Below, in pieces: positions 2,791 through 35,809 of a stretch of 64,000 nt of DNA. The notes under the pieces were generated by a model. It was not told the DNA's origin, did no database searches, and worked only from the letters and a program-made list of their open reading frames with translations. The translations under genes and the position numbers were made by a program. Origin of the DNA: Struthio camelus (taxonomy: Eukaryota > Chordata > Aves > Struthioniformes > Struthionidae); NCBI RefSeq assembly GCF_040807025.1, contig NC_090980.1, positions 124,001 through 188,000 of the forward strand, read 5' to 3'. The stretch's first letter is position 1. Each line of letters starts with the position of its first letter.

Positions 2791-2796
2791 TTTATT
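2791..2796 (-). promoter_or_regulatory. poly(A) signal AATAAA of the CEACAM1-like gene
   Basis: The + strand reads TTTATT, i.e. AATAAA on the minus strand, 78 bases after the TGA stop (2874-2876) of the CEACAM1-like gene. It gives a very short 3' UTR and leaves about 450 bases between this 3' end and that of the convergent upstream gene. Those 450 bases hold only scattered CCCAGGCGTCCGGG repeats. Confidence 0.7.
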
Positions 2797-2873
2797 CCAG
2801 CGGCCGGACCGGCGCGCCGCCACCCCGGCGGGGCCCAGGCGTCCGGGCGGGCGGGGGGGCGCCGGGCCCCCCC

Positions 2874-5800: not shown

Positions 5801-8800
5801 GCCGGAGCTCGAGGACCAGGGACGTCCCACGGCCGGAGCCTGGTGACTGGGAACGTGCCACGGCCGGAGCTCGAGGACGAGGGACGTCCCGTGGACGGGG
5901 CTCAAGGACCGCGGATGTCCCACGGCTGGACCCCGGTGACTGGGGACGTCCTGCAGCCGGAGCTCGAGGACCAGAGACGTCCCGGGGACGGGGACCGGGG
6001 ACGGGGACATCGTGGGGCCGGAGCTCGAAGACCGGGGACATCCCATGGCCAGACCCTGGTGACCGGGGACATCCCACAGACAGGGACCGGTGTCCGGGGA
6101 CATTCCACGGCCAGACCCTGGTGACCAGGGACGTCCCGCGGCCAGAGCTCAGTGAGCGGGGACGTCCTGTGGATGGAGGTCGAGGACCGGGGACGTCCCG
6201 CGGCCGGACCCCCGCGACCGGGGACGTCCCATGGCTGGAGCTCAAGGACCAGGGACGTCCCACGGCTGGAGCTCAAGGACCAAGGATGTTCTGTGGCCCG
6301 ATCCTGGTGACCAGGAACATCCCATGGCCGGACCCCCACGACCGGGGACGTCCCGTGGCTGGAGCTCAAGGACCAGGGACGTCCCGCGGCTGGAGCTCAA
6401 GGACCAAGGATGTTCTGTGGCCCGACCCTGGTGACCAGGAACATCCCATGGCCGGACCCCCACGACCGGGGACGTCCCGTGGCTGGAGCTCAAGGACCAG
6501 GGACGTCCCGCGGCTGGACCCCCGCAACCGGGGACGTCCCGTGGCTGGAGCTCAAGGACCAGGGACGTCCCGCGGCTGGACCCCCGCGACCAGGGACGTC
6601 CCGCGGCCGGACCCCCACGACCGGGGACGTCCCGCAGCCAGAGCTCAAGGACCAGGGACGTCCCGCGGCTGGACCCCCGCGACCAGGGACGTCCCACGGC
6701 CAGACCCCCACGACCGGGGACGTCCCGCAGCCAGAGCTCAAGGACCAGGGACGTCCCGCGGCCGGACCCCCGCGACCGGGGACGTCCCGCGGCCGGAGCT
6801 CAAGGACCAGGGACGTCCCGCGGCCGGACCCCGAGGACCAGGGACGTCCCGCGGCCGGACCCCGAGGACCGGGGACGTCCCACAGCTGGAGCTCAAGGAC
6901 CAGGGACGTCCCGCGGCCGGACCCCCGCGACCGGGGACGTCCCGCAGCCGGAGCTCAAGGACCAGGGACGTCCCACGGCTGGACCCCGAGGACCAGGGAC
7001 GTCCCGCAGCCGGACCCCGAGGACCGGGGACGTCCCGCCGCCGGAGCTCAAGGACCAGGGACGTCCCGCGGCCGGACCCCGAGGACCAGGGACGTCCCGC
7101 CACCGGACCCCCGCGACCGGGGACGTCCCGCGGCCGGAGCTCGAGGACCAGGGACGTCCCGCGGCCGGACCCCCGCGACCAGGGACGTCCCGCGGCCGGA
7201 CCCCCACGACCAGGGACGTCCCGCGGCCGGACCCCCGCGACCAGGGACGTCCCGCGGCCGGAGCTCGAGGACCAGGGACGTCCCGCGGCCGGACCCCCAC
7301 GACCGCGGGCGCGGGCAGGCCCCGGGGAGCCGCCGTCCCGGCGCGCGCGGCCGCCCCGACTCACCGCCCGCCGGCAGCTGCAGGAGGACGGTGGCGGCGG
7401 CGGCGCGGCCCAGCGCGGGGTTGGTGGCCACGCAGCGGTACTCGCCGGCCTGCGACGCCTCCTCGAAGACGAAGGCCAGGCGGCTCTGGTGGCCCACGGT
7501 GGCGTTGCCGAAGTCCCAGCGGTAGCGCGGCGGCGGGACGGCGGCGGCGGCGCAGGCCAGCTCCACCCGGGAGCCCAGCGGCGCCCGCACGGGGCTCGGC
7601 GGGGAGACGGCGGCGGCGGCGGGCCCGTCTGCGGGGACAGGGGCGAGCGGCGCGGGAGGGACGGGCCGCGGGGACGGGGACGCCGCGGGGGGACGGGACG
7701 CGGCGACGCGCTGTAGGGACGCGGCACGGGGACACGGCAGAGGGACGCGGCAGGGGGACGTGGTGCAGGGATGCGGCAGGGGGACGTGACACGGGGACGC
7801 GGCACGGGGACGCCGTGGAGGGACGTGGGAGGGGGACGTGGTGCAGGGATGCGGCAGGGGGACGTGACACGGGGACGCGGCACGGGGACGCCGTGGAGGG
7901 ACGTGGGAGGGGGACGTGGTGCAGGGAGATGTGACGGGGACGCAGTGCAGGGACATGGCAGGGGGACGTGACACAGCGACGTGGTGCAGGGATGTGACAC
8001 GGGGACGTGGTGCAGGGACGCAGCAGGGGGACGCGGTGCAGGGACGCGGTGCAGGGACGCGGCAGGGGGATGTGGCACGGGGACATGGCAGGGGGACGTG
8101 GTGCAGGGACGCGGCAGGGGGACGCGGTGCAGGGACGTGGTGCAGGGGGACATGGCAGGGGGACGTGGTGCAGGGACGTGGCAGGGGGATGTGACACGGG
8201 GACATGGCAGGGGGACGTGGCAGGGAGAAGTGACGGGGACGCGGTGCAGGGACGTGGCAGGGGGACGTGACACAGCGACGTGGTGCAGGGATGTGACACG
8301 GGGACGTGGTGCAGGGACGCGGCAGGGGGACGCGGTGCAGGGACGTGGCAGGGGGACGCGGTGCAGGGACATGGCAGGAGGATGTGACACAGCGATGTGG
8401 TGCAGGGATGCAGCACGGTGACGCGGCACGGGGACGTGGTGCAGGGACGTGGTGCAGGGATGTGACACGGGGACGTGGTGCAGGGACGCGGCAGGGGGAG
8501 GTGACACAGCGACGTGGTGCAGGGATGTGACACGGGGACGTGGTGCAGGGACGCGGCAGGGGGACGCGGTGCAGGGACATGGTGCAGGGGGACATGGCAG
8601 GGGGACGCGGTGCAGGGACGTGGTGCAGGGGGACATGGCAGGGGGACGCGGTGCAGGGACATGGCAGGAGGATGTGACACAGCGATGTGGTGCAGGGATG
8701 CAGCGCGGTGACGCGGCACGGGGACGTGGTGCAGGGACGTGGTGCAGGGACGTGGCAGGGGGACGTGGTGCAGGGACGTGGCAGGGGGACGCGGTGCAGG

Positions 8801-11763
8801 GACGTGGTGCAGGGATGTGACACGGGGACGTGGTGCAGGGACATGGTGCAGGGACGCGGCACGGGGACGCGGTGCAGGGACGTGGTGCAGGGACGCGGCA
8901 GGGGGATGCGGCACGGGGACATGGCAGGGGGACGCGGTGCAGGGACGTGGTGCAGGGACGTGGCAGGGGGACGCGGTGCAGGGACGTGGTGCAAGGACGC
9001 AGCACGGGGACGTGGTGCAGGGACGTGGCAGGAGGATGCGGCACGGGGACGTGGTGCAGGGGGATGTGACACGGGGACGTGGTGCAGGGACGCGGCAGGG
9101 GGACGTGGTGCAGTGATGTGGTGCAGGGACGCAGCACGGGGACGTGACACAGGAACGTGGTGCAGGGACGGGGACGTGGTGCAGGGATGCGGCAGGGGGA
9201 TGTGACGTGGGAACGTGGTGCAGGGACGCGGCACGGGGACGTGGTGCAGGGATGTGGCAGGAGGATGCGGCACGGGGACATGGCAGGGGGACGCGGTGCA
9301 GGGACGTGGTGCAGGGACGTGGCACGGGGACGTGACACAGGAACGTGGTGCAGGGACGTGACAGAGGAACGTGGTGCAGGGACGCGGCACGGTGACGGCG
9401 GCGCGGGGGCACTCACAGAGGACGGTGACGTTGGCCGGCTCGCTGCGGTTGCGGCTGACGGGGTTGCCGACCTCGCAGGCGTAGGCGCCGGCGTCGGTCC
9501 GGGAGGCCGCGGTCACCGTCAGCGTGCGGTTGTCCCCCGCCAGCGTCAGGCGGCCGCCGGCCGCCAGCGCCGCCCCGTCGCGCAGCCACAGCAGCGTCTC
9601 GGCGCCGGCCGGCCGGTCGCAGGCCAGGGCGAAGGTGTCGTTCTCGGGCGCCGTCACCGCCGCCGGCGTCACCCGGGGCCGGGGCAGCGGGGCTGCGGCG
9701 GGGCGGGTGTCACGGAGCGCAGGGGGCAACAGGCGGCAGCAGGAAGCACAGCCGAGCGGCTCGGGCGCCGCCGTTAATGATTCACCCGGCGCTGTTACAA
9801 GCGGCGGCGGGCGGGGGGGGAACAGGCGAAGGGGCCGAGGATCGGGCGCCCGTCCCCGCCCGCCCTTTGCTCCGGGAACAGGACGCCGCCCCGGTTTTCG
9901 GGGTCGGCCGGCGCCCGAAAAACGATAACCCTCCCCGGGGGAAGCGGGGTTGGCGCGTGCGAGCGCCGCGATTTCGGCGAGGGTGCCGGCGGCCGGGCAG
10001 CGCCGGAGGCAGCGTCTCGGGGTCGGCGGAAGGGGGGTACTCACCGTAGACGGTGAGGTTGGCGCCGGCGGTGACCAGGTCGGGCAGGCGGAGGTGCACG
10101 GTGTAGGCGCCGGAGTCGGCGGTCCGCAGCGCTCGCAGGTGCATGGAGCAATCGGGCCCGCTGCTCTCGCGGCCGGTGAAGGCGGCTCCGTCGGTCTGCG
10201 CCGGGTCGCCGGCGAAGTAGGTGAAAATCTCGCGCTGGGGGTCGGGCTCGGCCCCCCGGTACCACGTGCACAGGCGGAAGGCGGCCGGCGCCGGCTCCAG
10301 GGCGAAGGTGACGTTGCCGCCGGCCGCGGCCGGGTCGGGCCGCCGGAGGACGACCAGCCGGCCCGGCGCCGGCCGCAGGCAGCAGCAGCCCAGCAGGGCG
10401 GCTGCGGAGACGGAGCGCTCGAGGGCCCGCAACCGGACCGGGAACCGGACCGGGAACCGGACCGGGAACCGGACCTGGAACCGGACCTGGAACCGGACCC
10501 CGGAACCGGACCCCGGAACTGGACCCTGAAACTGGACCCCGGAACTGGACCCCGAAACTGGACCCCGGAACCGGACCCCGAAACCGGACCCCGAAACCGG
10601 ACCCCGAAACTGGACCCCGGAACCGGCCCTGGAACCGGACCCCGGAACCGGCCCCCGGAACCGGCCCTGGAACCGGACCCCGAAACTGGACCCCAAAACC
10701 GGACCCCGGAACTGGACCCTGGAACCAGACCCCGGAACTGGACCCCGGAACCGGCCCCCGAAACTGGACCCCGGAACCGGACCCCGGAACCGGCCCCCGG
10801 AACTGGACCCCGAAACCGGCCCCCGGAACTGGACCCCGAAACTGGACCCCAAAACCGGACCCCGGAACTGGACCCCAAAACCGGACCCCGGAACCGGCCC
10901 CCAGAACCGGACCCCGAAACTGGACCCTGAAACTGGACCCCGAAACTGGACCCCGAAACTGGACCCTGGAACTGGACCCCGAAACTGGACCCTGGAACTG
11001 GACCCCGGAACTGGACCCCGGAACTGGACCCCGGAACCGGACCCCGAAACCGGACCTGGAACCGGCCCCCGGAACCGGACCCCGAAACCGGACCCCGAAA
11101 CCGGACCCTGGAACTGGACCCCGGAACTGGACCCCAAAACTGGACCCCGGAACTGGACCCCGGAACTGGACCCCGAAACTGGACCCTGGAACCGGACCCC
11201 GGAACCAGCCCCCGAAACAGGACCCTGAAACTGGACCCCGGAACCGGCCCTGAAACTGGACCCCGAAACTGGACCCTGGAACCGGACCCCGAAACCGGCC
11301 CCCGGAACTGGACCCCGAAACTGGACCCTGAAACCGGCCCCTGAAACCAGATCCTGGAACTAGACCCTGAAACTGGACCCCAAAACCAGACCCCAAAACT
11401 GGACCCTGAAACCAGCCCCGGAACCGGCCCTGAAACCAGACCCCGAAACCAGACCCCAAAAACGGCCCCCGGAACCAGCCCCCAAAACTGGATCCCGAAA
11501 CCAGACCCCAAAACCAGACCCCAAAACCAGACCCCAAAACTGGATCCCGGAACCAGACCCCGAAACCGGCCCCAAAACCGGCCCTTGAAACCGACCCTGA
11601 AACTGGCCCTGGAACCGGCCTCCAAAACCGGCCCCCCAGAACCGGCCCCCGGAACCGGCCCCCGAAACTGGACCCCAAAACTGGACCCCGGAACCGGCCC
11701 CCCGGCCCCGTCCCGCTCGCTCTCACCCGCCAACGCCAGCGCCGCGCTCCGCCGGCACCCCAT
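2874..11763 (-). CDS. CEACAM1: CEACAM1-like Ig-superfamily inhibitory receptor
   Basis: Seven exons: 11727-11763, 10045-10401, 9417-9692, 7365-7628, 3595-3783, 3458-3489, 2874-3032; 1314 nt, 437 codons plus TGA, all junctions GT-AG with the phase-1 pattern of CEACAM genes. Exon 1 (MGCRRSAALALA) plus the start of exon 2 make a signal peptide. Exon 2 is an IgV N domain with CTWYRGAEPD, TGRESSGPDCSMHL and TADSGAYTVHLRLPDLV; as in mammalian CEACAM N domains, the usual B- and F-strand cysteines are absent. Exons 3 and 4 are C2-type A and B domains with cysteine pairs (ALAC/YACEV, LACA/YRCVA), joined by VLYGP exactly as in mammalian CEACAMs. Exon 5 gives the membrane segment (GLSPGAVAGAVLGSLLGLGL). 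Exon 7 carries IKYSTLAF and TVYSEVKRR, the counterparts of the CEACAM1 ITIMs VTYSTLNF and IIYSEVKK, which recruit SHP-1/SHP-2. Several NxS/T glycosylation sites lie in all three Ig domains. A Siglec was considered; exon phases and N domain favour CEACAM. Orthology to CEACAM1 itself is inferred. Confidence 0.88.
3040..3430. repeat. intronic minisatellite, about 62-base unit
   Basis: The intron before the ITIM exon of the CEACAM1-like gene contains about six units on the theme GGGCCCCCGCTCGGATGGGG followed by ACAAGGGACCCAGGCGTCC. It carries the CCCAGGCGTCCGGG core that is scattered through the left end of the window. Confidence 0.8.
3830..7310. repeat. 3.5-kb intronic satellite of GGGGACGTCCC units
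   Basis: The long intron between the B-domain exon and the membrane exon of the CEACAM1-like gene consists almost wholly of 28-33 base units containing the palindrome GGGACGTCCC, separated by linkers such as CGCGGCCGGACCCC or GGAGCTCAAGGACCA. The repeat is more homogeneous toward 6.5-7.3 kb than in the middle (5-6 kb), where G/A transitions have accumulated. No exon was found inside it. Confidence 0.92.
7690..9405. repeat. intronic satellite, GGGGACGTGGTGCAGGGACG units
   Basis: The intron between the A- and B-domain exons of the CEACAM1-like gene is a 12-14 base repeat of the type GGGACGYGGYRCAG/GGGACGTGGCAGG. The array starts within about 60 bases of one splice site and ends within 20 bases of the other. 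Confidence 0.9.
9693..10044. other. short unique intron of the CEACAM1-like gene
   Basis: This 352-base intron between the N- and A-domain exons is one of the few in the window without a tandem repeat. It is GC-rich with short poly-G and poly-C runs. I see no gene or clear site in it. Confidence 0.7.
10430..11705. repeat. intronic satellite, CCGGAACTGGACCC units
   Basis: Intron 1 of the CEACAM1-like gene is a 12-14 base repeat alternating CCGGAACTGGACC, CCGAAACCGGACC and CCGGAACCGGCC. It is most regular near exon 2 and more diverged (AAAACCAGACCC) toward exon 1, and it begins about 30 bases from the exon 2 acceptor. Confidence 0.9.
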
Positions 11764-12050
11764 GGGCGCCCGGACGCCTGGGCCCGCTCCCGCGGCCCAC
11801 GCAGGTGCCAGCTGCCCCGGCGGGAGGGCGAAGGGCTCCCCCCCCCCCCCCCAAAGCGCCGTGGTCCCTCCCGCTGTGGGGCCGGGCTTCCCCACGGCCA
11901 GCCCCACGGCGGGGGGGGGGGGGGCGTTCGCCACCGCCCGGCCAGCCGCACGCCTGGGCCCCCCCCCTCCCGGCTCCGATTTGGGGCTAAAAACGAGCGG
12001 AACGGGCAAAGGAGCTGCCCCGAGGGAGCAGCCGGGAGGCTGCGGGGATG
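11764..12050 (-). promoter_or_regulatory. probable promoter region of the CEACAM1-like gene
   Basis: Unique GC-rich sequence with long homopolymer runs immediately upstream of the ATG at 11763 (minus strand). No strong TATA box or named site stands out, so it is assigned by position only. Confidence 0.3.
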
Positions 12051-12051
12051 G

Positions 12052-14230
12052 TTTTCGTGGGGGGGGGGGTCGGGGGCGGGTTTGGGGGGGTCTCAGGGCC
12101 GGTTTTGGGGGTCGGGGAGGGTTTGGGGGGGGTTCAGGGGTCATTTTGGGGGCTCAGGGCTGATTTGTGGGGTCTCAGGGCCGGATTTCGATGGGGGTCA
12201 GCATCAGCTTTGGGGGCTTCAGGGCTGGTTTTGGGGGGTCTCAGGGCCGGTTTGGGGGTCTCAGGGTGGTTTTGGGGGGTCTCAGGGCCGGTTTGGGGGG
12301 CTCAGGGTGGTTTTGGGGGGCTCAGGGCCGGTTTGGGGGTCTCAGGGTGGTTTTGGGGGGTCTCAGGGCCGGTTTGGGGGGCTCAGGGTGGTTTTGGGGG
12401 GCTCAGGGCCGGTTTGGGGGTCTCAGGGCTGGTTTTGGGGGTCTCAGGGCCAGTTTGGGGGGCTCAGGGTGGTTTTGGGGGGCTCAGGGCCGGTTTGGGG
12501 GGCTCAGGGTGGTTTTGGGGGGTCTCAGGGCCGGTTTGGGGGGCTCAGGGTGGTTTTGGGGGGCTCAGGGCTGGTTTGGGGGTCTCAGGGTGGTTTTGGG
12601 GGGTCTCAGGGCCGGTTTGGGGGGCTCAGGGTGGTTTTGGGGGGCTCAGGGCCGGTTTGGGGGTCTCAGGGCTGGTTTTGGGGGTCTCAGGGCCAGTTTG
12701 GGGGGCTCAGGGTGGTTTTGGGGGGCTCAGGGCCGGTTTGGGGGGCTCAGGGTGGTTTTGGGGGGCTCAGGGCCGGTTTTGGGGTCTCAGGGCTGGTTTT
12801 GGGGGGTCTCAGGGCCAATTTTGGGGGTTGGGGCGGGTTCTGGGGGGATTCAGGTATGATTTTGGGGGCTCAGGGCTGATTTGTGGGGTGTCAGGGCCGG
12901 ATTTTGATAGGGGTCAGCATCAGCTTTGGGGGCTTCAGGGCTGGATTTTGGGGGTCTCAGGGCCAGTTTGGGGGGCTCAGGGTGGTTTTGGGGGTCTCAG
13001 GACCAATTTCAGTGGACTCAGGGCTGGTTCTGGGGTCTCAGGGCTGGTTCTGGGGTCTCAGGGACAATTTTGGGGTCTCAGGGCTGGTTCTGGGGTCTCA
13101 GGGCGGGTTTGGGGGCTCAGGGCGGGTTTGGGGGCTCAGGGCCGGTTTTGGGGGTCGGGGTGGGTTCTGGGGGGGCTCAGGGGTCATTTGGGCGGCTCAG
13201 GGCTGATTTGTGGGGTCTCAGAGCTGGATTTTGACAGGGGTCAGGATGAGTTTTGGGGGAGCTCAGGGCTGGATTTTGGGGGGCTCAGGGCCGTTTTGGG
13301 GGGCTCAGGGTGGTTTTGGGGGCTCATGGCTCGTTTTGGGGGCTGACGGCGGGTTCTGGGGTCTCAGGACTGGTTTTGGGGTCTCAGGACTGCTTGTTGG
13401 GGTTCTCAGGGCGGGTTTGGGGTCTCAGGGCAGGTTTGGGGGGCTCAGGGCGGGTTTTGGGGACTCAGGGCGGGTTTTGGGGGCTCAGGGCAGGTTTTGG
13501 GGGGCTCAGAACCAATTTCAGTGGGCTCAGGGTGGGTTTGGGGGCTCAGGGCAGGTTTGGGGGGTCTCAGGACCAATTTCAGTGGGCTCAGGGTGGGTTT
13601 GGGGGTCTCTGGGCAGATTTGGGCTCTCCGGGCAGGTTGGGGGTCTCAGGGTGTGTTCTGGGGGCTCAGGGCAGGTTTTGGGGGTCTCAGGACCCATTTT
13701 GGGGGTCTCTGAGTGGGTTGGGGGTCTCTGGGCGGGTTCTGGGGTCTCAAGGCAGGTTTTGGGGGGCTCAGGACCCATTTTGAGGATCTCTGGGCGGGTT
13801 AGGGGTCTCTGGGCGGGTTCTGGGGTCTCAAGGCAGGTTTTGGGGGGCTCAGGACCATTTTGGGGGTCTCCGGGCAGGTTCTGGGGTCTCAAGGCAGGTT
13901 TTGGGGGGCTCAGGACCCATTTTGGGGGTCTCTGAGCGGGTTGGGGGTCTCTGGGCGGGTTCTGGGGTCTCAAGGCAGGTTTTGGGGGGCTCAGGACCAT
14001 TTTGGGGGTCTCCGGGCAGGTTCTGGGGACTCAAGGCAGGTTTTGGGGGTCTCAGGACCCATTTTGGGGGTCTCTGAGCGGGTTGGGGGTCTCTGGGCGG
14101 GTTCTGGGGTCTCAAGGCAGGTTTTGGGGGGCTCAGGACCATTTTGGGGGTCTCCGGGCAGGTTCTGGGGTCTCAAGGCAGGTTTTGGGGGGCTCAGGAG
14201 CCATTTTGGGGGTCTCCGGGCGGGTTCTGG
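12052..14230. repeat. intergenic satellite, GGTTTTGGGGGGCTCAGGGC units
   Basis: About 2.2 kb of 20-24 base units (GGTTTTGGGGGTCTCAGGGCC and variants) between the CEACAM1-like promoter and the CXCL17-like gene. Longer composite periods occur, one of about 60-70 bases at 12.2-12.8 kb and one of about 140 bases at 13.7-14.2 kb. No gene is seen. Confidence 0.92.
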
Positions 14231-15290
14231 CCCCCCGGCCTTGCCCCACAGCCCCCCGGCCCTGCAGGGCTGCCCCCCCGGGGATGCCCCACGGCCCCAC
14301 TGCATTGCCCCACAGCATTGCCCCACGGCCCCACCGCGTTGCCCCATGGCGATGCCCCACAGCCCCACGGCGTCTGCCCCCCGGGGATGCCGCACGGCCC
14401 CACAGCATTGCCCCCAGGGGTTGCCCCACAGCCCCCTGGCGCTGCCCCACAGCACTGCCCCACAGCATTGCCCCCCGCAGTTACCCCACGGCCCCCCGGT
14501 GCTGCCCCACAGCATTGCCCCACGGCCCCACCGCGTTGCCCCATGGCGATGCCCCACAGCCCCACAGTGTCTGCCCCCCGGGGACGCCCCACAGCCCCAC
14601 AGCACTGCCCTACAGCATTGCCCCACGGTCCCACTGCATTGCCCCACAGTGTTGCCCCACAGCATCGCCCCCTGGAGTTACCCCACGGCCCCCCGGTGCT
14701 GCCCCACAGCATTGCCCCACGGCCCCACCGCATTGCCCCATCGGGATGCCCCACAGCCCCACAGTGTCTGCCCCCCGGGGATGCCCCACAGCCCCACAGC
14801 ACTGCCCCACAGCATTGCCCCACGGCCCCACCGCGTTGCCCCATGGCGATGCCCCACGGCCCCACAGTGTCTGCCCCCCGGGGATGCCCCACGGCCCCAC
14901 TACATTGCCCCACAGCATCGCCCCCTGGAGTTACCCCACGGCCCCCCGGTGCTGCCCCACAGCATTGCCCCACGGCCCCACCGCATTGCCCCATCGGGAT
15001 GCCCCACAGCCCCACAGTGTCTGCCCCGCGGGGATGCCCCACAGCCCCACAGCACTGCCCCACAGCATTGCCCCACGGTCCCACCGCGTTGCCCCATGGC
15101 GATGCCCCACAGCCCCACAGTGTCTGCCCCCCGGGGATGCCCCACGGCCCCACTACATTGCCCCACAGCATTGCCCCACGGGGACGCCCCCCAGCCCCCC
15201 AGCGCTGCCCCCCAGGGATGCCCCCCAGCCCCCCGGCGCTGCCCCCCGCAGTTCCCCCCCGGCGCTGCCCCCCGACGCCGAGGGCAGGCG
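14231..15290. repeat. intergenic satellite, GCCCCACAGCATTGCCCCAC units
   Basis: About 1.06 kb of 15-base units (GCCCCACAGCATT, GCCCCACGGCCCCACC) with a longer composite period of about 130-140 bases containing CAGTGTCTGCCCCCCGGGGA. It adjoins the GGTTTTGGGG array without a spacer. No gene is seen. Confidence 0.9.
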
Positions 15291-15575
15291 GGGCGCCGTG
15301 GGTCGCCCCCCCCCCCCGCGCCCCACGGAAGCAGCGGCGGGGGGGGCACACACGCGTGTGCGTGCACACACATGTCGGGGAGGTTGCGCCGGGGGGGGGG
15401 GGGAGCAGCCGCGGGCTCCGGGCGGCCGCCCAAAACCCCCCGGGGCCCCCGAATCGCTCACCTTTCCCGTAAGCCCGGCGCCGCCCCCAAAACGGGGTCG
15501 GGGGGGGGGGGCACAGCGGGGGGGGGGGGGAATAAAGCGGCGCCGCCGGGGACCCGCCGGGCTCCGGCCTCCGCC
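15291..15575 (+). promoter_or_regulatory. upstream region of the CXCL17-like gene with ATAAAG box
   Basis: GC-rich, partly homopolymeric sequence with a CA/TG-rich patch (CACACACGCGTGTGCGTG, near 15348). AATAAAGCGG at 15531-15540 could act as a TATA-like box about 43 bases before the ATG, which would give a very short 5' UTR. The same hexamer could instead be a poly(A) signal, but no upstream + strand gene was found to use it. Confidence 0.3.
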
Positions 15576-15909
15576 ATGCGCCGCCCGCTCGCCCTGGCCC
15601 TGCTGCTGCTGCTGCTGCTGCTGCTGGGGGGGGGGGACGGGACCCCCCGGCCCCCCCGGCCCCCCCGGGGGGCACCGGCCCCCGTCGGCGCCGGGAGCCG
15701 CCGGCCGCTCTGCACCTGCGGGAGAGGAGCCGCGAGTGAGGCAGCGCCCTTTTTTGCGGGGGGGGGGATTTTTTGGGGTACCCCCCCTTTATTTCTTTCT
15801 CTCCCCCCCCCCCGCAGGGGTCCCCGCCGCCCCCCGGGGCCGGTGCCCGCCGCCCGCCCGGCGCTGCCGCCCCCGCGCCCCCACCAAGGGGCTCTCGCTG
15901 CCCCTCTAG
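15576..15909 (+). CDS. CXCL17: candidate CXCL17 orthologue, secreted cysteine-containing peptide
   Basis: Two exons, 15576-15735 and 15818-15909, join in phase across an 82-base intron (GTGAGG donor, CCCGCAG acceptor) to 83 codons and TAG. Residues 1-17 are a poly-Leu signal peptide; a Pro/Gly-rich stretch follows. The mature part has SRRPLCTCGRG and then GRCPPPARRC, ending TKGLSLPL. Mammalian CXCL17 is a small basic secreted mucosal protein with SRR ahead of a C-x-C pair, a second C-x-C, a C-x6-C pair and the end LPL; its C-terminal tail is reported to activate GPR25. Here the first C-x-C, the C-x6-C spacing, the basic charge and the final LPL are kept, but the middle C-x-C and the surrounding region are missing. 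It lies between the CEACAM1-like gene and LIPE and points the same way as LIPE, as in mammals. Identity over the rest is negligible, so the call rests on position, architecture and tail. An unrelated small secreted peptide is the alternative. Confidence 0.6.
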
Positions 15910-17430
15910 GGGCCGAATTCGGATGCCCCCCCCCCCCCCCGAGGACGTCTGCGGAGACCCGCGGCCACGACCGCCTCGCCGGACCCCCCCCCCCGGGACT
16001 TCGATGGATTCCCCCCCCGGGACCCCCCCCCCCCGCTGACCCCTATGGATCCTGCCGGACCATCGCCACGGACCCTGAGAGCCCTGTGACCCCCCCCGTG
16101 GACCCTGGGACCCCCCCCATGGACCCTGGGACCCCCCCGCGGACCCTGTGACCCCCCCGTGGACCCTCTGACCCCCCCCGTGGACCCTGTGACCCCCTCG
16201 CGGACCCTGTGACCTCCCTGTGACCCCCCCCCGCGGACCCTGTGACCCCCCCACGGACCCTGTGACCCCCCCGCGGACCCTGTGACCTCCCTGTGACCCC
16301 CCCTGTGGACCCTCTGACCCCCCCCATGGACCCTGTGACCCCCCCCGTGGACCCTGTGACCTCCCTGTGACCCCCCCCCCGCGGACCCTGTGACCCCCCC
16401 GCGGACCCTGTGACCCCTCCCGTGGACCCTCTGACCCCCCCGCAGACCCTGTGACCTCCCTGTGACCCCCCCATGGACCCTGTGACCCCCCCCCGTGGAC
16501 CCTGTGACCCCCCCGTGGACCCTGTGACCTCCCTGTGACCCCCCCGTGCACCCTGTGACCCCTCCATGGACCCTGAGAGCCCTGTGACCCCCCCGTGCAC
16601 CCTGTGACCCCCCTGTAGACCCCCCCCATGGAGCCTGTGACCCCCCCGCGGACCCTGTGACCCCCCCGCGGACCCCTATGGATCCCCTGTGACCCCCCCG
16701 TGCACCCTGTGACCTCCCTGACCCCTGTGACCCCCCCGATTGACCCCTTTGGACTCCCTCAGACTCCTCCAGCCCCCTAAGAGCCTCCATGGGCCCCCCA
16801 GACCCTCTGTGAGCCCCACGGACCCCCCCAAGCCCCCCTAGACCCTCTTTAGCCCCCCCAGACCCCCTGTGACCCCCCACACTGACCCCCCCCAGGCCCC
16901 TCCCAGCCCCATAGACCCCCAAGACCCCCCACACTGACCCCCCCAGGCCCCTCCCAGCCCCATAGACCCCCCTAGACCCCCCACACTGACCCCCCCAGGC
17001 CCCTCCCAGCCCCATAGACCCCCTAGACCCCCACACTGACCCCCCCAGGCCCCTCCCAGCCCCATAGACCCCCCTAGACCCCTTTGGATCCCCCCAGACC
17101 CCCCACACTGACCCCCCAGGTCCCTCCCAGCCCCATAGACCCCCCTAGACCCCCATGGACCCCCCCAGACGCCCCACACTGAACCCCCAGGCCCCTCCCA
17201 GCCCCATGGACCCCCCTAGACCCCCCACACTGCCCTCCCAGGTCCCTCCCAGCCCCATAGACCCCCCTAGACCCCCCATGGACCCCCCCAGACGCCCCAC
17301 ACTGACCCTCCCAGGCCCCTCCCAGCCCCATAGACCCCCCATGGACCCCCCCAGACCCCCCCCCAGACCCCCCCAGGCCCCTCCCAGCCCCATAGACCCC
17401 CCAGACCCCCATGGACCCCCCGGCCCCGCC
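15910..17430. repeat. satellites in the CXCL17-like 3' flank
   Basis: Two arrays. About 16.03-16.74 kb has 19-21 base units (TGTGACCCCCCCGTGGACCC). About 16.87-17.42 kb has 55-60 base units of the type CCAGGCCCCTCCCAGCCCCA followed by TAGACCCCCC. If the next poly(A) signal (17538) belongs to the CXCL17-like gene, these would lie in its 3' UTR. Confidence 0.85.
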
Positions 17431-17537
17431 GTGACTCCGCAGCCCCACAGCGCTGTGGGGCCGGGGGGGGGGTCCGGGGCTCCCTGGGGTGGCGGGGGGG
17501 GGTCGGGGTCAGGGGTCGGGGGTCGCCGCGTCCCGCC

Positions 17538-17543
17538 AATAAA
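17538..17543 (+). promoter_or_regulatory. AATAAA, possible poly(A) signal of the CXCL17-like gene
   Basis: First + strand AATAAA after the TAG at 15909 (1.63 kb downstream), immediately before the CpG-rich promoter-like block. Use by the CXCL17-like transcript is inferred only from position. Confidence 0.35.
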
Positions 17544-17554
17544 AACCGCAGCCG

Positions 17555-17800
17555 ACGCCGCGCCGGGTCAGAGGTCGCGGGCGCGCGCCGGGGTCAGGGG
17601 TCAGGGGTCAGCGCGCGCGCCCGCGCCTGGCCGCGGGGGGGGGGGGAGGCGGGCGGTTGCCCGGGCGACGGGGGGAGCGCGGGCGGCGATTGGCCGCGCC
17701 GCCGTCACGTGGCGGCGCCGGAAGCGGCTCGGCGGCGGGGAGGGGGGGGAAGAGGAGGAGGAGGGGGGCGGGGCCTGGACGGAAGCCGCAGGTGGGCGCG
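17555..17800 (+). promoter_or_regulatory. CpG-island promoter, probably of LIPE
   Basis: Non-repetitive CpG-dense block with several recognisable sites: GGGTCA half-sites at 17591, 17598 and 17605 spaced by one base (DR1 type, the PPAR/RXR or HNF4 arrangement) and a further DR1-like GGGTCAGAGGTCG near 17565; GTTGCCCGGGCGAC (RFX-like) at 17656; inverted CCAAT (ATTGG) at 17689; GTCACGTGG E-box around 17705; CCGGAAG ETS site at 17718. A potential donor (GCCGCAG/GTGGGC) near 17791 could end a non-coding first exon. It lies about 2.4 kb upstream of the LIPE ATG. Assignment to LIPE is by orientation and the lack of another gene. Confidence 0.5.
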
Positions 17801-17879
17801 CGCGGGCGAGACCACCGGGGCGGCGGGGGGGGGGGAAGCGGGGGGGGGAGGCCGGGCCGGACCACGCGCGCGCCCCGGG

Positions 17880-18590
17880 GGGGGGACGAGGGGGGAAAAC
17901 ACCCCCAAAATGGGGGGGGTCGGGGGGGGAACCACCCCTAAAATGGGGGGGAGAACCCACCCCTAAAATGGGGCGTCAAGGGGGGGAACCACCCCTAAAA
18001 TGGGGGGGGATTGGGGTGAACCATTCCCAAAATGGGGTGGTCGAGGGGGGGACCGTCCCTAAAATGGGGGGAGAACCCACCCCTAAGATGGGGCATCAAG
18101 AGGGGGGGAACCATCCCCAAAGTGGGGGGGGATTGGGGTGAACCATTCCCAAAATGGGAGGGGGTCAGTGGGGAATCCACCCCCAAAATGGGGGGGTCGA
18201 GGGGGGGAACCACCCCTAAAATGGGGGGGTCGAGGGGGGGAACCATCCCCAAAATGGGGGGGATCTAGGGGGAACCACCCCCAAAATGGGGGGGTCGAGG
18301 GGGGGAACCACCCCTAAAATGGGGGGGGATTGGGGTGAACCATTCCCAAAATGGGAGGGGGTCGGTGGGGAATCCACCCCCAAAATGGGGGGGTCGAGGG
18401 GGGCAACCACCCCTAAAATGGGGGGCGTCGAGGGGGGGAACCATCCCCAAAATAGGGGGGGTCGAGGGGGGGGAACCACCCCCAAAATGGGGGGGGAGTC
18501 TGGGGGGAACCATTCTCCAAAATGGGGGGGTGGCTGGGTCAAACCACCCCCAAAAAGGGGGGGGCAGTGGGGTAACCTCTCCACCCGCCC
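17880..18590. repeat. satellite, ACCACCCCTAAAATGGGGGG units
   Basis: About 22 units of 30-35 bases (GGTCGAGGGGGGGAACCACC / CCTAAAATGGGG), upstream of LIPE. The CCCCTAAAATGGGG element is an imperfect palindrome. No gene is seen. Confidence 0.9.
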
Positions 18591-18599
18591 CCCAAAAAC

Positions 18600-19110
18600 G
18601 TGGGGACACGGCTGCCCCACGGCCGCCCCACACCTGGGGACATGGCAGCCCCAGCCCCACAGCTGCCCCAGCCCCCCCTCCCCCATGGCCGCCCCCCAAC
18701 TGTCCCGGCCCCCCCCAAACGCCCCCCAATTGCCCCAGCCCCATGGCTACCCCCCCCGGCCACCCCAGCCCCACGGCTGCCTTGGCCCCCCCCAGGTACC
18801 CCAGCCCCCCAGCTGCCCCCCCCCAGCTGCCCCAGTGCCCCAACTGCCCCCCCCAGCCCCCCAAACACCCCCCAATTGCGCCAGCCCCATGGCCACCCCC
18901 CCGGCCAGCCCAGCCCCACGGCTGCCCCGGCCCCCCCCAGCTGCCCCAGCCCCCCATGGCCGCCCCCCCCAGCTGCCCCAGTGCCCCAACTGCTCCCCTC
19001 CAGCCCCCCGAAACGCCCCCCAATTGCCCCAGCCCCATGGCCACCCCCCCCGGCCCCCCAGCCCCACGGCTGCCCCAGCCCCATGGCCGCCCCCCCCTCC
19101 CCGGCTGCCC
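18600..19110. repeat. satellite, GCCCCAGCCCCACGGCTGCC units
   Basis: C-rich array of about 25 and 70-base composite units (GCCCCAGCCCCATGGC, CCCCCCAATTGCCCCAGCC) upstream of LIPE. No coding potential beyond the stop-free repeat. Confidence 0.85.
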
Positions 19111-19119
19111 CCTGTCCCG

Positions 19120-19260
19120 GTGCCCCCTGCCCCAGCGCCGCCGTCCCGTCCCCGCCGCCGCCGCCTTGCGCAAGGTCCCCGGGGTAAAGGGGTGAAGGGG
19201 CCCCGGCGTCCGGGGCGGAGCGCCGGCCGCTCCGTTAAAGCGGGACCGGCCGCCCCGGCA
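19120..19260 (+). promoter_or_regulatory. unique LIPE-proximal block with C/EBP palindrome
   Basis: Short non-repetitive block between two satellites. It contains the full C/EBP palindrome TTGCGCAA at 19166-19173 and a DR1-like GGTAAAGGGGTGA near 19182. A possible acceptor (CCCCGGCAG) at about 19260 abuts the next repeat. C/EBP and PPAR factors drive lipolytic genes in mammals; their use here is inferred. Confidence 0.4.
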
Positions 19261-20178
19261 GGGAGACGGAGCCGTCGGAGGAGCCGGAGCCGCTGGAGGA
19301 CCTGCTGGAGGACCCGCCGGAGCCATCGGAGCCGCTGGAGGAGCCGTCGGAGCTGTCAGAGCCATTGGAGCTGCTGTTGGAGGAGCCGTAGGAGCCATCG
19401 GAGCTGTTGGAGCCATCAGAGCCACCGGAGCCACCATCGGAGCCGCTGTTGGAGCCACCGGAGCTGTCGGAGAGGTCACAACCATCATCAGAGCCATCAC
19501 AGCCGCCGTTAGAGCCACCGGAGCCGTCGGAGAGGTCACAACCACCGTTGGAGCCACCACAGCCGCCGTCAGAGCCACCAGAGCCATCGGAGAGGTCACA
19601 ACCACTACCAGAGCCATCAGAGAGGTCACAACCACCGCCGGAGCCACCACAGCCGCCGTCAGAGCCACCAGAGCCATCGGAGAGGTCACAACCACTGCCG
19701 GAGCCACCACAGCCGCCGTCAGAGCCACCAGAGCCATCGGAGAGGTCCCAGCCGCCGTCGGAGAGGTCCCAGCCGCCACCAGAGCCACCAGAGAGGTCAC
19801 AACCACCGCCAGAGCCACCACAGCTGCCGTCAGAGCCACCAGAGCCGTCGGAGAGGTCACCACTGCCACCAGAGCCATCGGAGAGGTCCCAGCCACCGTC
19901 GGAGAGGTCCCAGCCATCACCGGAGCCACCAGAGAGGTCACAACCACCGTTGGAGCCACCACAGCCACCGTCAGAGCCACCAGAGCCATCAGAGAGGTCC
20001 CAGCTGCCGTCGGAGAGGTCCCAGCCGCCACCAGAGCCACCAGAGAGGTCACAACCACCGCCAGAGCCACCACAGCTGCCGTCAGAGCCACCAGAGCCGT
20101 CAGAGAGGTCACCACTGCCACCAGAGCCATCGGAGAGGTCCCAGCCGCCGTCGGAGAGGTCCCAGCCGCCGCGGGAGC
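19261..20178. repeat. trinucleotide-based satellite in the LIPE 5' flank or UTR
   Basis: Units on the theme GAGCCACCAGAGCCGTCGGA / GAGAGGTCACAACCACC, with a period that is a multiple of three. It reads without stops on + as [13 protein letters not shown] repeats and on - as [17 protein letters not shown] repeats. The + strand frame is not the LIPE frame, so it is not an N-terminal extension of the lipase as it stands. It ends 5 bases before the LIPE ATG context and may be 5' UTR. Confidence 0.85.
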
Positions 20179-20182
20179 CGGC

Positions 20183-23100
20183 ATGGAGACCCGTCCGCTC
20201 TTCCAGGCGCTGCACGCGCTGGCCGAGGACAACGCCGCCTTCTTCGGGCGCAGCGGCACGGAGGCCGGCCGGCGCTTGGCGGCCGCCTTCGGCGCCATCC
20301 GCGAGCACGCCCGGCGCCTGGAGCCGGCCCTGGGCCACTTCGCCCGCCTCTACCACCGCTTCGACCTGGACGAGGCCACGCCGGGCAACGGCTACCGCAG
20401 CCTGGTGCACACGGCGTGCTGCTGCCTGGCGCACGTGGTGCACAAGAGCCGCTACGTGGCCGCCCACCGCCGCAGCCTCTTCTTCCGCGGCGGCCACAAC
20501 GCCGCCGAGCTGGAGGCCTACGGGGCCGCCCTGGCCCAGCTCCGCGCCCTGCTCTGCCTGGCCCAGCGCCTGCTGACCCACAACCGCCCCGGCTGCCTCT
20601 TCGCCCACGATGACGACGAGGAGGAGGAGGAGAAGGACGAGGAGGGAGGAAGGGGCTCGGCCGGGCTCTCGGCGCTGGTGCTGCGGGAGTACAGCACCAT
20701 GCACAACGGCTGCTTCTACGGCCGCTGCCTCGGCTTCCAGGTGAGGGGGGACGGGTGGGCGACCTGCCGCGGGGACGTGGGGACGTGGCGATGGGTGGAC
20801 GACCTGCTGCGGGGACGTGGGGACGTGGGGATGGGTGGGCGACCTGCTGCAGGGACGTGGGGACGTGGGGATGGGTGGGCGACCTCCCATAGGGACGTGG
20901 GGATGGGTGGGCGACCTCCCACAGGGACGTGGGGATGGGTGGGTGACCTGCCATGGGGACGTGGGGACGTGGGGATGGATGTGCAACCTCCCACAGGGAT
21001 GTGGGGATGGGTGGGTGACCTGCCATGGGGACGTGGGGACGTGGGGATGGATGTGCAACCTCCCATAGGGACGTGGGGATGGGTGGGTGACCTCCCACAG
21101 GGACGTGGGGATGGGTGGGTGACCTGCCATGGGGATTTGGGGACGTGGGGATGGATGTGCAACCTCCCATAGGGACGTGGGGATGGGTGGGCGACCTGCC
21201 GTGGGGACGTGGGGATGTGGGGATGGATGGGTGACCTCCCATAGGGACGTGGGGATGGGTGGGTGACCTCCCACAGGGACATGGGGATGGGTGGGCGACC
21301 TGCCATGGGGACGTGGGGACGTGGGGATGGATGGGTGACCTCCCATAGGGACGTGGGGATGGGTGGGTGACCTCCCACAGGGACATGGGGATGGGTGGGC
21401 GACCTGCCGTGGGGACGTGGGGATGTGGGGATGGATGGGTGACCTCCCATAGGGACGTGGGGACGGGTGGGAGACCTGCCGCGGGGACGTGGGGACGGGT
21501 GGGAGACCTGCCGCGCGGACGTGGGGACGCGGGTGCCCCCGCCCGGCGCTCGTGGGTGCGGGGGAGCGGCGGCGCCGCGCGGGACGCTGCTCGCTGCGGC
21601 CCGCGTGGCTCGGCCGTCCGTCCGTCCGCGCGTCTCTGCGTCTGTTTTCCTGTGGGCTTACCTGTTCCCTTCCCGCTCTGTCCGGCTGCCTGGCGCTTTG
21701 TCCATCCGCGTCCCTGCTCGCGCCTCTCCATCCACGCGTGGGCTTCCCCTTCCGTCCACCCGCTTGTTGGCCTGTCCATCTGGCTTTTCATTTCTCTGTC
21801 TTTGTGTCTGTCGGTCCGTCTGTCCGGCTGTGCATCTCTCCATCTGCCCGTGCATCCGTCCATCCCTCCATCTGCCCGTGCATCCGTCCATCTGCCCGTG
21901 CATCCGTCCATCCCTCCATCTATTCATCCATCCCTCCATCTGCCCGTGCATCCATCCATCTGCCCGTGCATCCATCCGTCCATCCATCTATTCATCCATC
22001 CCTCCATCTGCCCGTGCATCCATCCGTCCATCTGCCCGTGCATCCGTCCATCCATCCATCTATTCATCCATCCCTCCATCTGTCCGTGCATCCGTCCATC
22101 CGTCCATCTGCCCGTGCATCCGTCCATCCCTCCATCTATTCATCCATCCCTCCATCTGCCCGTGCATCCGTCCATCTGCCTGTGCATCCATCCATCCATC
22201 TATTCATCCATCCCTCCATCTGCCCGTGCATCCATCCGTCCATCCATCCATTCATCCATCTATCTGTCTCTCCATCTGTTCGTCCGTGTGTCCGTCCAAC
22301 CATTTGTCCATCTGTTTGCTTGTCTATCCAACCACCCATCCATCCATCCATCCCTTGGCCCATCTATGCCTCTGCCTGTCCACCTGTCCGTCCGTCCATC
22401 CATCCATCCATCCCTTGGCCCATCTATCCATCTGCCTGTCTGTCCATCCGTCTGTCCATCCATCCACCCATCCATCCATCCATCCCTTGGCCCATCTATC
22501 CCTCTGCCTGTCCACCTGTCCGTCCGTCCATCCATCCATCCATCCCTTGGCCCATCTATCCATCTGCCTGTCCGTCCATCCGTCTGTCCATCCATCCACC
22601 CATCCATCCATCCATCCCTTGGCCCATCTATCCCTCTGCCTGTCCACCTGTCCGTCCGTCCATCCATCCATCCATCCCTTGGCCCATCTATCCATCTGCC
22701 TGTCCATCTGTCCATCCATTCGTCCATCCGTTTGTCCATCCATCCATCCATCCCTTGGCCCATCTATCCATCTACTTGTCCATCTGTCCATCCATCCGTC
22801 CATCCATCCATCCATCCATCCATCCATCCATCCCTTGGCCCATCTATCCATCTGTCCATCCATCCGTCCGTCCATCCATCCATCCATCCCTTGGCCCATC
22901 TATCCATCTGCCTGTCCGTCCATCCGTCTGTCCGTCCATCCATCCATCCATCCCTTGGCACATCTATCTCTCTACTTGTCCATCCATCCGTCCATCCATC
23001 CGTCCATCCATCCCTTGGCGCGTCCATCCCTCTGCGTGTCCACGCGTCCACCCATCTGCCCCTCCGTCCGTCCATCGATGCATCCGTCCGTCTGTCCGCC

Positions 23101-26100
23101 CGCCGGCAGTTCGCCCCCTCCATCCGGCCCTTCCTGCAGACCATCGCCATCGGCCTCGTCTCCTTCGGCGAGAACTACAAGCGGGACGACACGGGGCTGG
23201 GTGAGAGCGGGGGCACCTGGGGGGGACACGGGGGGGGGACACGGGGGGACCCAGGGGGGACACGTGGAGACGTGGGGGGCGGCTGGGGGAGCATGAGGGG
23301 ACGCTGGGGGGGACACGGGGGGAGGAAGGGGGGATGCGGGGGGACATGGGGGGACATGGGGGCAGGAAGGGAGGACACGGGGGGACACGGGGGGAGGAAG
23401 GGGGGACGCGGGGGGACACGGGGGGACACAGGAGGATGCAGGAGGATGCAGGGGGACACGGGGGGCCATGGGGGGGAGGAAGGGGGGATGCAGGGGGACA
23501 CGGGGGGCCATGGGGGGGAGGAAGGGGGGATGCAGGGGGACACGGGGGCAGGAAGGGGGGATGCAGGGGGCAGGAAGGGGGGACACGGGGGGACACGGGA
23601 GGGATGCAGGAGGATGGTGGAGGGACGCGGGGGCAGGAAGGGGGGATGCAGGGGGCAGGAAGGGGGGCAGGAAGGGGGGGCGGTGGGGGGACACGGGGGG
23701 ACACGGGAGGGATGCAGGAGGATGCAGGGGGCCACGGGGGGACACGGGGGGCAGGAAGGGGGGATGCAGGGGGCCATGGGGGACACAGGAGGATGCAGGG
23801 GGATGCAGGGGGCAGGAAGGGGGGATGCAGGGGGCAGGAAGGGGGGCAGGAGGGGGGGATGCAGGGGGCCATGGGGGACACAGGAGGATGCAGAGGGATG
23901 CAGGGGGATGCAGGGGGATGCAGGGGGCAGGAGGGGGGGATGTAGGGGGCAGGAAGGGGGGATGCAGGGGGCAGGAAGGGGGGCGGCGGGGGGACACGGG
24001 GGGACACGGGAGGGATGCAGGGGGATGCAGGGGGCAGGAAGGGGGGATGCAGGGGGCGGGAAGGGGGGCAGGAGGGGGGGATGCAGGGGGCCATGGGGGA
24101 CACAGGAGGATGCAGGGGGATGCAGGGGGCGGGAAGGGGGGATGCAGGGGGATGCAGGGGGCAGGAAGGGGGGATGCAGGGGGATGCAGGGGGCGGGAAG
24201 GGGGGGATGCAGGGGGATGCAGGGGGCAGGAAGGGGGGATGCAGGGGGATGCAGGGGGCAGGAAGGGGGGACACAGGAGGATGCAGGGGGCAGGAAGGGG
24301 GGATGCAGGGGGATGCAGGGGGCAGGAAGGGGGGATGCAGGGGGATGCAGGGGGCAGGAAGGGGGGATGCAGGGGGATGCAGGGGGCAGGAAGGGGGGCA
24401 GGAAGGGGGGATGCAGGGGGCAGGAAGGGGGGACACAGGAGGATGCAGGGGGCAGGAAGGGGGGGATGCAGGGGGATGCAGGGGGCGGGAAGGGGGGATG
24501 CAGGGGGCAGGAAGGGGGGATGCAGGGGGATGCAGGGGGATGCAGGGGGCAGGAAGGGGGGATGCAGGGGGATGCAGGGGGCAGGAAGGGGGGATGCAGG
24601 GGGATGCAGGGGGCGGGAAGGGGGGATGCAGGGGGCAGGAAGGGGGGATGCAGGGGGATGCAGGGGGATGCAGGGGGATGCAGGGGGCAGGAAGGGGGGC
24701 AGGAAGGGGGGATGCAGGGGGCAGGAAGGGGGGATGCAGGGGGCAGGAAGGGGGGCAGGAGGGGGGGCGCTGAGCGGGGGCGCTGAGCGGGGGCGGCAGG
24801 GGTGGCGGCCGGCTCGCTGCTGAGCAGCGGGAAGCTGGCGCTGGACCCGGAGCTGCGGGGCGCCGAGTTCGAGCGGCTGACGCGCCAGCTGGACGTGCAC
24901 TTCTGGAAGCGCTTCTGGAGCCTGACCGAGAGCCAGCTGCTGGCCGTGAGCGTCCCCCCCGCACCCCCGTGTGTGTCCCCCCCCCCGGCACCCCCCCCAC
25001 CGCGCTCAGCCCCCCGGCGGCCCGCAGGCGGTGGCGGCGGCGGCGGCGGCGCCCGTGCGGGTCTGCTGGGCGCTGACGGTGCCGCCGGAGCCCCTGGAGC
25101 TGCCGCTGGCCGCCGACCCCTCGCTCACCGTCACCGTCCCGCCGCCCGTGGCCCACAGCGGGCCCGGCCCCCTGCGCCTCCGCCTGCTCTCCGCCGAGCT
25201 GCGCCAGGGACAGGTCGGCCCCGGCCCCACGGCGGGGGGGGGGCGGGGGGGCTGCATGGGGGGCTGCTGGGGGGAGCTATGGGGTGGTGCATTGGGGGCT
25301 GCTGGGGGGAGCTATGGGGCGGTGCATTGGGGGCTGCATTGGGGACTGCTGGGGGGCTGCTGGGGGGCGGTGCATTGGGGGGTCTGCTGCTGGGGGGGAG
25401 CTGCTATGGGGCAGTGCAATGGGGGGCTGCAATGGGGGTGCAATGGGGGGAGCTGCAATGGGGGGTGCAATGGGGGGGTGCAATGGGGGGAGCTGCAATG
25501 GGGGGAGCTGCAATGGGGCAGTGCAATGGGGGGTGCAATGGGAGCTGCAATGGGGGGAGCTGCAATGGGGCGGTGCAATGGGGGGTGCAATGGGGGGAGC
25601 TGCAATGGGGCGGTGCAATGGGGGGTGCAATGGGGGGAGCTGCAATGGGGGGAGCTGCAATGGGGGCTGCAATGGGGGGAGCTGCAATGGGGCGGTGCAA
25701 TGGGGCGGTGCAATGGGGGCTGCAATGGGGGGGTGCAATGGGGCGGTGCAATGGGGCGGTGCAATGGGGCGGTGCAATGGGGGGTGCAATGGGGGGAGCT
25801 GCAGTGGGGCGGTGCAATGGGGGGAGCTGCAATGGGGGGAGCTGCAATCGGGCGGTGCAATGGGGGCTGCAATGGGGGGTGCAATGGGGGAGCTGCAATG
25901 GGGGAGCTGCAATGGGGGGAGCTGCAAGGGGGCAGTGCAATGGGGGGTGCAATGGGGGGGGCTGCAATGGGGGAGCTGCAATGGGGCGGTGCAATGGGGG
26001 GTGCAATGGGGGGAGCTGCAATGGGGGGAGCTGCAATGGGGGCTGCAATGGGGGGAGCTGCAATGGGGCGGTGCAATGGGGCGGTGCAATGGGGGCTGCA

Positions 26101-34224: not shown

Positions 34225-34680
34225 CCATGGGGAGCCCCCTGCTCCCCATAGCAGAGCCGAGGAGGGGCCCTGCGCCCCATAGGGAGCCCCCTGCGCCCCA
34301 TAGGGAGCCGAGGAGGGGCCCTGCACCCCATAGTGGGACCCTGTGCCCCATAGGGAGCCCCCTGCACCCCATAGGGAGCCGAGGAGGGGCCCTGCGCCCC
34401 ATAGGGAGCCCCTTGGGCCCCATAGGGAGCCGAGGAGGGGCCCTGCGCCCCATAGGGAGCCCCTTGGGCCCCATAGCAGAGCCGAGGAGGGGCCCTGCGC
34501 CCCATAGCAGGACCCTGCGCCCCATAGGGAGCCGAGGAGGGGCCCTGCGCCCCATAGTGGGACCCTGTGCCCCATAGGGAGCCGAGGAGGGGCTCTGCGC
34601 CCCATAGGGAGCCCCTTGTGCCCCATAGGGAGCCGAGGAGGGACCCTGTGCCCCATAGGGAGCCCCCTGCGCCCCACAGC
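34225..34680. repeat. intergenic satellite, CCCCATAGGGAGCCGAGGAG units
   Basis: About 15 units of 25-33 bases (GCCCCATAGGGAGCC, GAGGAGGGGCCCTGCGCC) between the LIPE 3' end and the next CpG island. No gene is seen. Confidence 0.9.
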
Positions 34681-34689
34681 AGCCCCGTT

Positions 34690-35000: not shown

Positions 35001-35014
35001 GCTCAGGGCGGGGG

Positions 35015-35310: not shown

Positions 35311-35394
35311 GGGGGGGGGAGTGTTCGGGCCCTGCAGCCCCCCATAATCACCCAGGGCCTGAACTCGCCCCATAGGTGCCCCGTTAACCCCCTG

Positions 35395-35640: not shown

Positions 35641-35777
35641 AGGAGGGTTTGGGCCAGGGGCTCCCCAAAGGGTTTTTTGGGGGGGGGGTCCCATCCCTGT
35701 TGCCTCAAAACCAGCCGCCCCCAACACCCCCCCCCAACTCACGGGGACATGTGGGGCTGGGGGGGCAACAGCCGGCG

Positions 35778-35783: not shown

Positions 35784-35809
35784 ACCCCCCCCGCGGCGGG
35801 GGGAGGGGG

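Follow-up and report, generated by a model that had tools for sequence, protein, structure and literature searches.

Gene order around the candidate

The window analyzed here is the whole 64,000-nt stretch of ostrich DNA. Its GC content is 64–80% when read in 2-kb steps, and 46,649 of the 64,000 bases were masked as tandem repeats by TRF. The left part holds a CEACAM1-like gene on the minus strand (2874..12073, 5′ end uncertain), in which Pfam placed a V-set domain at 10076–10324 and Ig domains at 9421–9678 and 7420–7605. A transmembrane segment (from 3772), an ITIM (from 2972), and an ITSM (from 2903) follow before the stop codon at 2876–2874, and it is this combination of a V-set and two more Ig domains with the transmembrane segment, ITIM, and ITSM that led us to call the gene CEACAM1-like. 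An AATAAA lies 78 nt past the stop, the wider gene region being 2796–12073 on the minus strand, and there was no damage in the parts read. To the left of this gene, inspection by eye revealed an apparent small gene on the plus strand (765–2110), whose donors look clean and one exon of which encodes a transmembrane segment.

LIPE occupies 17422..34099 on the plus strand, from a CpG-rich island beginning at 17422 to the stop codon at 34097–34099, with its 5′ end uncertain. Pfam matches to HSL_N were obtained at 20201–20743 and 24793–25213 and to Abhydrolase_3 at 26857–33280, and an AATAAA at 34143 lies 44 nt past the stop. The CpG-rich stretch at approximately 17.4–18.0 kb is probably the LIPE promoter. 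Two repeat features were recorded within the gene. At 31856–32563, part of a putative LIPE exon is repeated approximately five times head to tail with a period of ~145 and a 98% match; a marker 30-mer of the repeat starts at 31863, 32009, 32154, 32299, and 32444. Each copy carries a donor-like end, so several donors may serve one acceptor. From 33155 to 34099, the LIPE frame continues beyond the lipase domain, crossing a tandem repeat before it reaches its stop, which would give a long repetitive C-terminus unless an intron removes the repeat.

Beyond LIPE, at 47.9 and 57.1 kb on the minus strand, PSI and kelch/attractin-type matches, some of them below Pfam cut-offs, suggest MEGF8. No clear Pfam match to cornifelin (CNFN) was found in the ORFs tried at its expected position between LIPE and the MEGF8-like gene, 34600–38800; late cornified envelope gave the sole weak match there, at an E of 0.028 that misses the family cut-off. 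An assembly gap of 200 N (41778–41977) lies beside a long tandem repeat.

The candidate gene that is the subject of this study lies between the CEACAM1-like gene and LIPE and is on the plus strand, like LIPE. This placement had been proposed in an earlier, sequence-only reading of the window, and the Pfam domains agree with it, with the addition that the CEACAM1-like gene itself is on the minus strand. In human, the order is CEACAM1, CXCL17, LIPE, CNFN, MEGF8, with the first four sharing one strand. On that map, CEACAM1 has the same strand as CXCL17 and LIPE, whereas in the ostrich window the CEACAM1-like gene is inverted, opposite to both the candidate and LIPE.

A two-exon gene model and its predicted product

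The candidate consists of two coding exons on the plus strand, join(15576..15735,15818..15909), whose spliced translation gives the 83 residues MRRPLALALLLLLLLLLGGGDGTPRPPRPPRGAPAPVGAGSRRPLCTCGRGAARVPAAPRGRCPPPARRCRPRAPTKGLSLPL, followed by a stop codon. Coding exon 1 (15576..15735) encodes a signal peptide with (CTG)9 and then runs to ...SRRPLCTCGRGAA, and coding exon 2 (15818..15909) encodes ...VPAAPRGRC-PPPARR-CRPRAPTKGLSLPL before TAG. The phase 1 intron of 82 nt (15736..15817, plus strand) starts with GTGAGG and ends with a pyrimidine tract and CAG. Re-translation reproduced exactly the frame, length, signal peptide, and intron given in the sequence-only reading, and the SRR-x2-C-x-C, C-x6-C, and LPL end that it had pointed out are all there.

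The protein is composed of a Leu-rich signal peptide, SRRPLCTC, the C-x6-C pair, and an LSLPL end. Its length lies within the limit of <200 residues for CXCL17, and LPL is an X-Pro-Y end in which X and Y are large aliphatic residues. The signal-peptide-like start, with a best 8-residue hydropathy of 3.8, is a rule-based prediction. The four cysteines (C46, C48, C63, and C70) are ordered C-x-C, C, C with spacings of x14 and x6; in the canonical CXC chemokine fold the spacing is far wider. If cleaved after residue 22, the mature protein would have a calculated pI of 12.0 and a charge of +13, a basic character that is partly forced by GC content, and most frames in DNA this GC-rich would yield a protein rich in Arg, Pro, Gly, and Ala. 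The (CTG)9 microsatellite makes up most of the signal peptide and is the sole CTG tract of at least five units found in the window. The frame also passes through an 11-G run and several C runs, which can be miscounted in sequencing, so an assembly error in the frame is possible.

Two further hits to the candidate were discarded. A search of the PDB returned one repeat protein (E 0.13), which matched the signal region only and provided nothing useful. The tRNA-Thr called by ARAGORN with the bacterial code at 15623–15714 on the minus strand, opposite exon 1, is most likely a chance fold of GC-rich DNA.

Splice, start, and end signals

Scored against a splice-site consensus, the donor reached 5.2 and ranked 88 among the 2,665 GT sites on the plus strand of the window. 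The acceptor tract of the 82-nt intron is 95% pyrimidine, and donor and acceptor are in matching phase. The ATG has a G at −3.

AATAAA occurs six times on the plus strand, at 15531, 17538, and 34143 and at three sites in tandem repeats near 36 kb. The copy at 15531..15536 lies 45 nt upstream of the ATG and is a weak, possible TATA-like element; as a promoter element it would imply a very short 5′ UTR. The copy at 17538..17543 is a candidate poly(A) signal and could mark the end of the candidate transcript. It lies 1.6 kb 3′ of the stop, versus 78 nt for the CEACAM1-like gene and 44 nt for LIPE, and falls just within the left end of the putative LIPE promoter, the CpG-rich stretch at ~17.4–18.0 kb. 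On the minus strand, an AATAAA at 15793 was set aside, being within the pyrimidine tract of the intron, and no minus-strand gene was seen leading to it.

Repeat-free island and codon-position pattern

TRF masking leaves the candidate in a repeat-free, CpG-rich island of 808 nt (15274..16081). It is the sole repeat-free stretch of at least 60 nt between 12074 and 17421 and ranks second in size among 57 repeat-free islands of at least 60 nt. The CpG o/e was 0.61–0.84 in 200-nt windows starting at 15201–15901 and 0.0–0.5 in those starting at 16001–17301. All 11 placed Pfam-matched pieces lay at least 90% inside repeat-free islands, an agreement that is partly circular, since the 58 ORFs taken for the Pfam search came from 246 listed ORFs that had all been chosen for at least 120 repeat-free bases. 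The 11 pieces include PSI, which is below its family cut-off, and kelch, which is below that of the placing family, with Kelch_3 and Kelch_4 passing there; the below-cut-off PCF11 repeat, Lysostaphin_N, Decapeptide, and BD-FAE matches were left out of the count.

A and T bases were counted by codon position. From the junction codon on, the counts at the three positions were 6, 5, and 0 (third position 0/11, p 0.012). For both exons after the poly-Leu tract, they were 12, 8, and 3 (third position 3/23, p 0.026), and over the CDS without ATG and stop, with the CTG tract counted, the third position held 3 of 34 (p 0.0009). Exon 1 alone after the poly-Leu tract gave 7, 3, and 3, indicating no third-position pattern. 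Two LIPE pieces used for comparison gave 47, 93, and 3 (third position 3/143) and 17, 30, and 0 (0/47). Of 2,487 repeat windows holding a comparable number of A/T bases, a given class was empty in 1.0% and any class in 2.7%. The pattern provides moderate support for coding, mostly through exon 2.

Rarity of the model in the window and in simulated sequence

Both strands of the window were scanned for models of one or two exons (introns of 60–600 nt) with fair splice sites, a signal-like hydrophobic start, a [LIMV]P[LIMV]-stop, at least three or four cysteines, and a length within set limits. These marks were derived from the account of zebrafish CXCL17 given in PMC12905490, and the cysteine minimum was lowered from six after the candidate was known. 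With at least three cysteines, a single model in the 64 kb showed the full set, namely the candidate. The [LIMV]P[LIMV]-stop was found once on the plus strand and twice on the minus strand.

In simulated sequence, read on the plus strand, the strict form with four cysteines arose in 6 of 11,769 trials of 8 kb with the composition of 12–20 kb and in 1 of 11,474 trials of 8 kb with the non-repeat composition. Sequences of 808 nt with the island composition yielded none in 112,972 (second order) and none in 158,298 (first order). The rate of the strict form in composition-matched random 8 kb was thus approximately 1 in 2,000 to 1 in 11,000 trials, figures that somewhat flatter the candidate because the threshold was relaxed post hoc and random models rarely build a (CTG)9. 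When three cysteines were accepted instead, the counts for the four sets in the same order were 8, 2, 0, and 0; when loose splice sites were accepted, they were 32, 3, 0, and 0. The loosest form gave 144, 23, 11, and 1.

Under loose splice rules, 15 two-exon models reach the candidate stop in the real sequence of 12–20 kb. One of the 15, the candidate, has a hydrophobic start (3.8, versus 0.42–0.70 for the other 14). An alternative among these 14 uses the donor at 15470, whose score of 5.1 is close to the 5.2 of the candidate. When up to three exons were allowed over 14900–15906, every model for this stop other than the candidate lacked a hydrophobic start, and no six-cysteine or three-exon signal-peptide model for that stop was found in this interval.

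Comparison with mammalian and zebrafish CXCL17

Like the candidate, mammalian CXCL17 lies beside LIPE and on the LIPE strand (by the human map), is basic, and has a signal peptide, SRR ahead of C-x-C, a C-x6-C pair, and an LPL end. The SRR had been read as standing before the first C-x-C as in mammals; the motif is present, but its distance in human, 8 residues, is not the 2 of the candidate. Human CXCL17 also has 9 residues after its last cysteine, versus 13 in the candidate. As described in PMC10252012, the mammalian protein has 119 residues, six cysteines, and four exons, whereas the candidate has 83 residues, four cysteines, and two coding exons. Neither the six mature cysteines of CXCL17 in the order C-x-C, C-x-C, C, C nor its four-exon, three-intron structure was found, with untranslated exons being possible.

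The candidate matched no Pfam family, PF15211 included, at E up to 10 in a search whose HMMER filters drop most weak matches. Human CXCL17 matches PF15211 at 6.7e−53. The score of a local alignment between the two proteins was reached by 1,050 of 5,000 shuffles and was not significant; that of a global alignment was reached by 51 of 5,000, weakly above chance. In the PDB, the human sequence had one match at E 0.53, taken as chance, and none other at E ≤ 1.

The zebrafish CXCL17s described in PMC12905490 were found among 795 short secreted proteins by looking for a signal peptide, six cysteines, and an X-Pro-Y end; all the marks were present in 2 of the 795, and both are GPR25 agonists. In the same account, activation of zebrafish GPR25 was almost abolished once the last three CXCL17 residues were removed, the two proteins have pI values of 10.5 and 10.0, and both are without overall resemblance to mammalian CXCL17. 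The zebrafish cxcl17 gene is placed between pafah1b3 and ceacam1, near cnfn, and this placement is called similar to human. The disulfides are predicted to join the first C-x-C with the second and then the last pair, and the AlphaFold2 model is reported as low-confidence (PMC12905490).

Dr-CXCL17 (zgc:158701) resembles the candidate in its place beside ceacam1, its signal peptide, its basic character, its X-Pro-Y end, and its lack of overall mammalian similarity. However, it has 109 residues, four exons, and six cysteines and is an assayed GPR25 agonist (PMC12905490), whereas the candidate is a predicted one. Its last cysteine pair is C80/C91, versus C-x6-C in the candidate, so the C-x6-C that had been proposed as a shared mark holds for mammalian CXCL17 but is not fixed. 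Dr-CXCL17-like (si:dkey-112a7.5) is, like the candidate, short, secreted, and basic with an LPL end, and it activates GPR25. It lies on another chromosome among other neighbours and has its six cysteines as C-x-C, C, C-x-C, C, and there is no positional match (PMC12905490).

A probable diverged CXCL17 and the alternatives

We consider it rather likely that the candidate is the bird counterpart of CXCL17, a positional ortholog that has diverged and acts on GPR25. Judged from one window of one species, the identity as the sauropsid CXCL17 that the sequence-only reading had put forward is probable: the place, strand, signal peptide, basic character, and X-Pro-Y end agree with it, whereas the six cysteines, the four exons, and a match to PF15211 were not found. 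Because it has four cysteines instead of six, we treat it as a candidate positional ortholog and do not file it as a confirmed CXCL17. It probably functions like CXCL17.

As a CXCL17, this small gene of two coding exons would be transcribed and its product secreted from epithelium, with residues 1 to approximately 22 as the signal peptide. The strong basic charge (calculated pI 12) should hold the protein to glycosaminoglycans on mucosal surfaces, where we infer its role to be. The free C-terminal Leu-Pro-Leu would enter the GPR25 pocket on lymphocytes, and leukocytes would be attracted. The middle C-x-C of CXCL17 would have been lost, leaving four cysteines; the body would probably be poorly ordered, with the tail doing the work. 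With the middle C-x-C gone, the cysteine pairing predicted for zebrafish would not be available in that form. A disulfide might join C46 or C48 to C63 or C70; another option is a small loop ahead of the tail, closed by the last pair alone. We lean slightly toward the idea that birds kept a reduced four-cysteine, Pro-Arg-rich CXCL17 in place and shed most of the folded core, a GPR25 agonist needing little beyond secretion, charge, and a free Leu-Pro-Leu. Its position in GC-rich tandem-repeat DNA and its invisibility to similarity searches would explain why a bird gene of this kind was overlooked.

The CXCL17 slot could also be occupied by a genuine gene for a small secreted protein of a different family, perhaps one specific to birds, that ends in LPL by coincidence; a proline-arginine-rich antimicrobial peptide, in place of a GPR25 ligand, would be an example. 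It would suit the absence of a PF15211 match, the four cysteines, the Arg-Pro-rich mature part, and the two coding exons. We nevertheless consider it unlikely, as X-Pro-Y ends are rare (three in all when the two strands of the window are combined), the slot and the strand relation to LIPE are the same as those of CXCL17, and the 2 of 795 zebrafish proteins with all the marks both proved to be GPR25 agonists in PMC12905490. It is equally unlikely that the frame is open by chance within a CpG island, as part of a non-coding exon or an alternative LIPE first exon for instance, and that no such protein exists. GC-rich DNA leaves frames open, and the candidate is itself overlapped by ORFs of 782, 657, and 854 codons; the signal peptide, moreover, is mostly a (CTG)9 microsatellite. 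Against this stand the rarity of the model in the window scan and in simulated sequence, the third-position pattern of exon 2, and a donor and an acceptor in matching phase. Exon 1 might serve LIPE as an alternative first exon, which belongs to this chance-frame reading; the stop that follows LPL excludes exon 2 from LIPE.

The candidate could also be a decaying CXCL17, formerly functional and shedding cysteines where GPR25 signalling is relaxed. It lacks two of the six cysteines along with the middle part, and the neighbour CEACAM1 has been lost in many birds, with intact copies gone in fowl and songbirds, according to a 2026 preprint (PMC13278318). However, the frame, splice sites, signal peptide, and LPL end are all intact, and the CEACAM1-like neighbour is undamaged in the parts read; we hold decay to be quite improbable, more so than either of the other two alternatives.

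CXCL17 and GPR25 outside mammals

GPR25 has been reported from fishes to mammals, and a title from 2018 is said to concern GPR25 in non-mammalian vertebrates. The record of CXCL17 is narrower as given in PMC3568907, whose table has it in human, mouse, cow, and elephant and absent from the other 14 species, including chicken, zebra finch, duck, and anole lizard. According to PMC10792014, CXCL17 is specific to placental mammals, and the zebrafish CXCL17s of January 2026 are presented by their authors as the first report outside mammals (PMC12905490). Our literature search covered titles and the beginnings of abstracts, with bioRxiv preprints and most subscription papers outside its scope, and found, among the papers listed, no CXCL17 of a bird or reptile. 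If the candidate is indeed CXCL17, it would close a wide gap in this record, provide a ligand with which bird GPR25 could be tested, and show how far a GPR25 ligand can shrink. It would also mean that, in GC-rich bird DNA, place and a three-residue tail can reveal genes missed by similarity searches.
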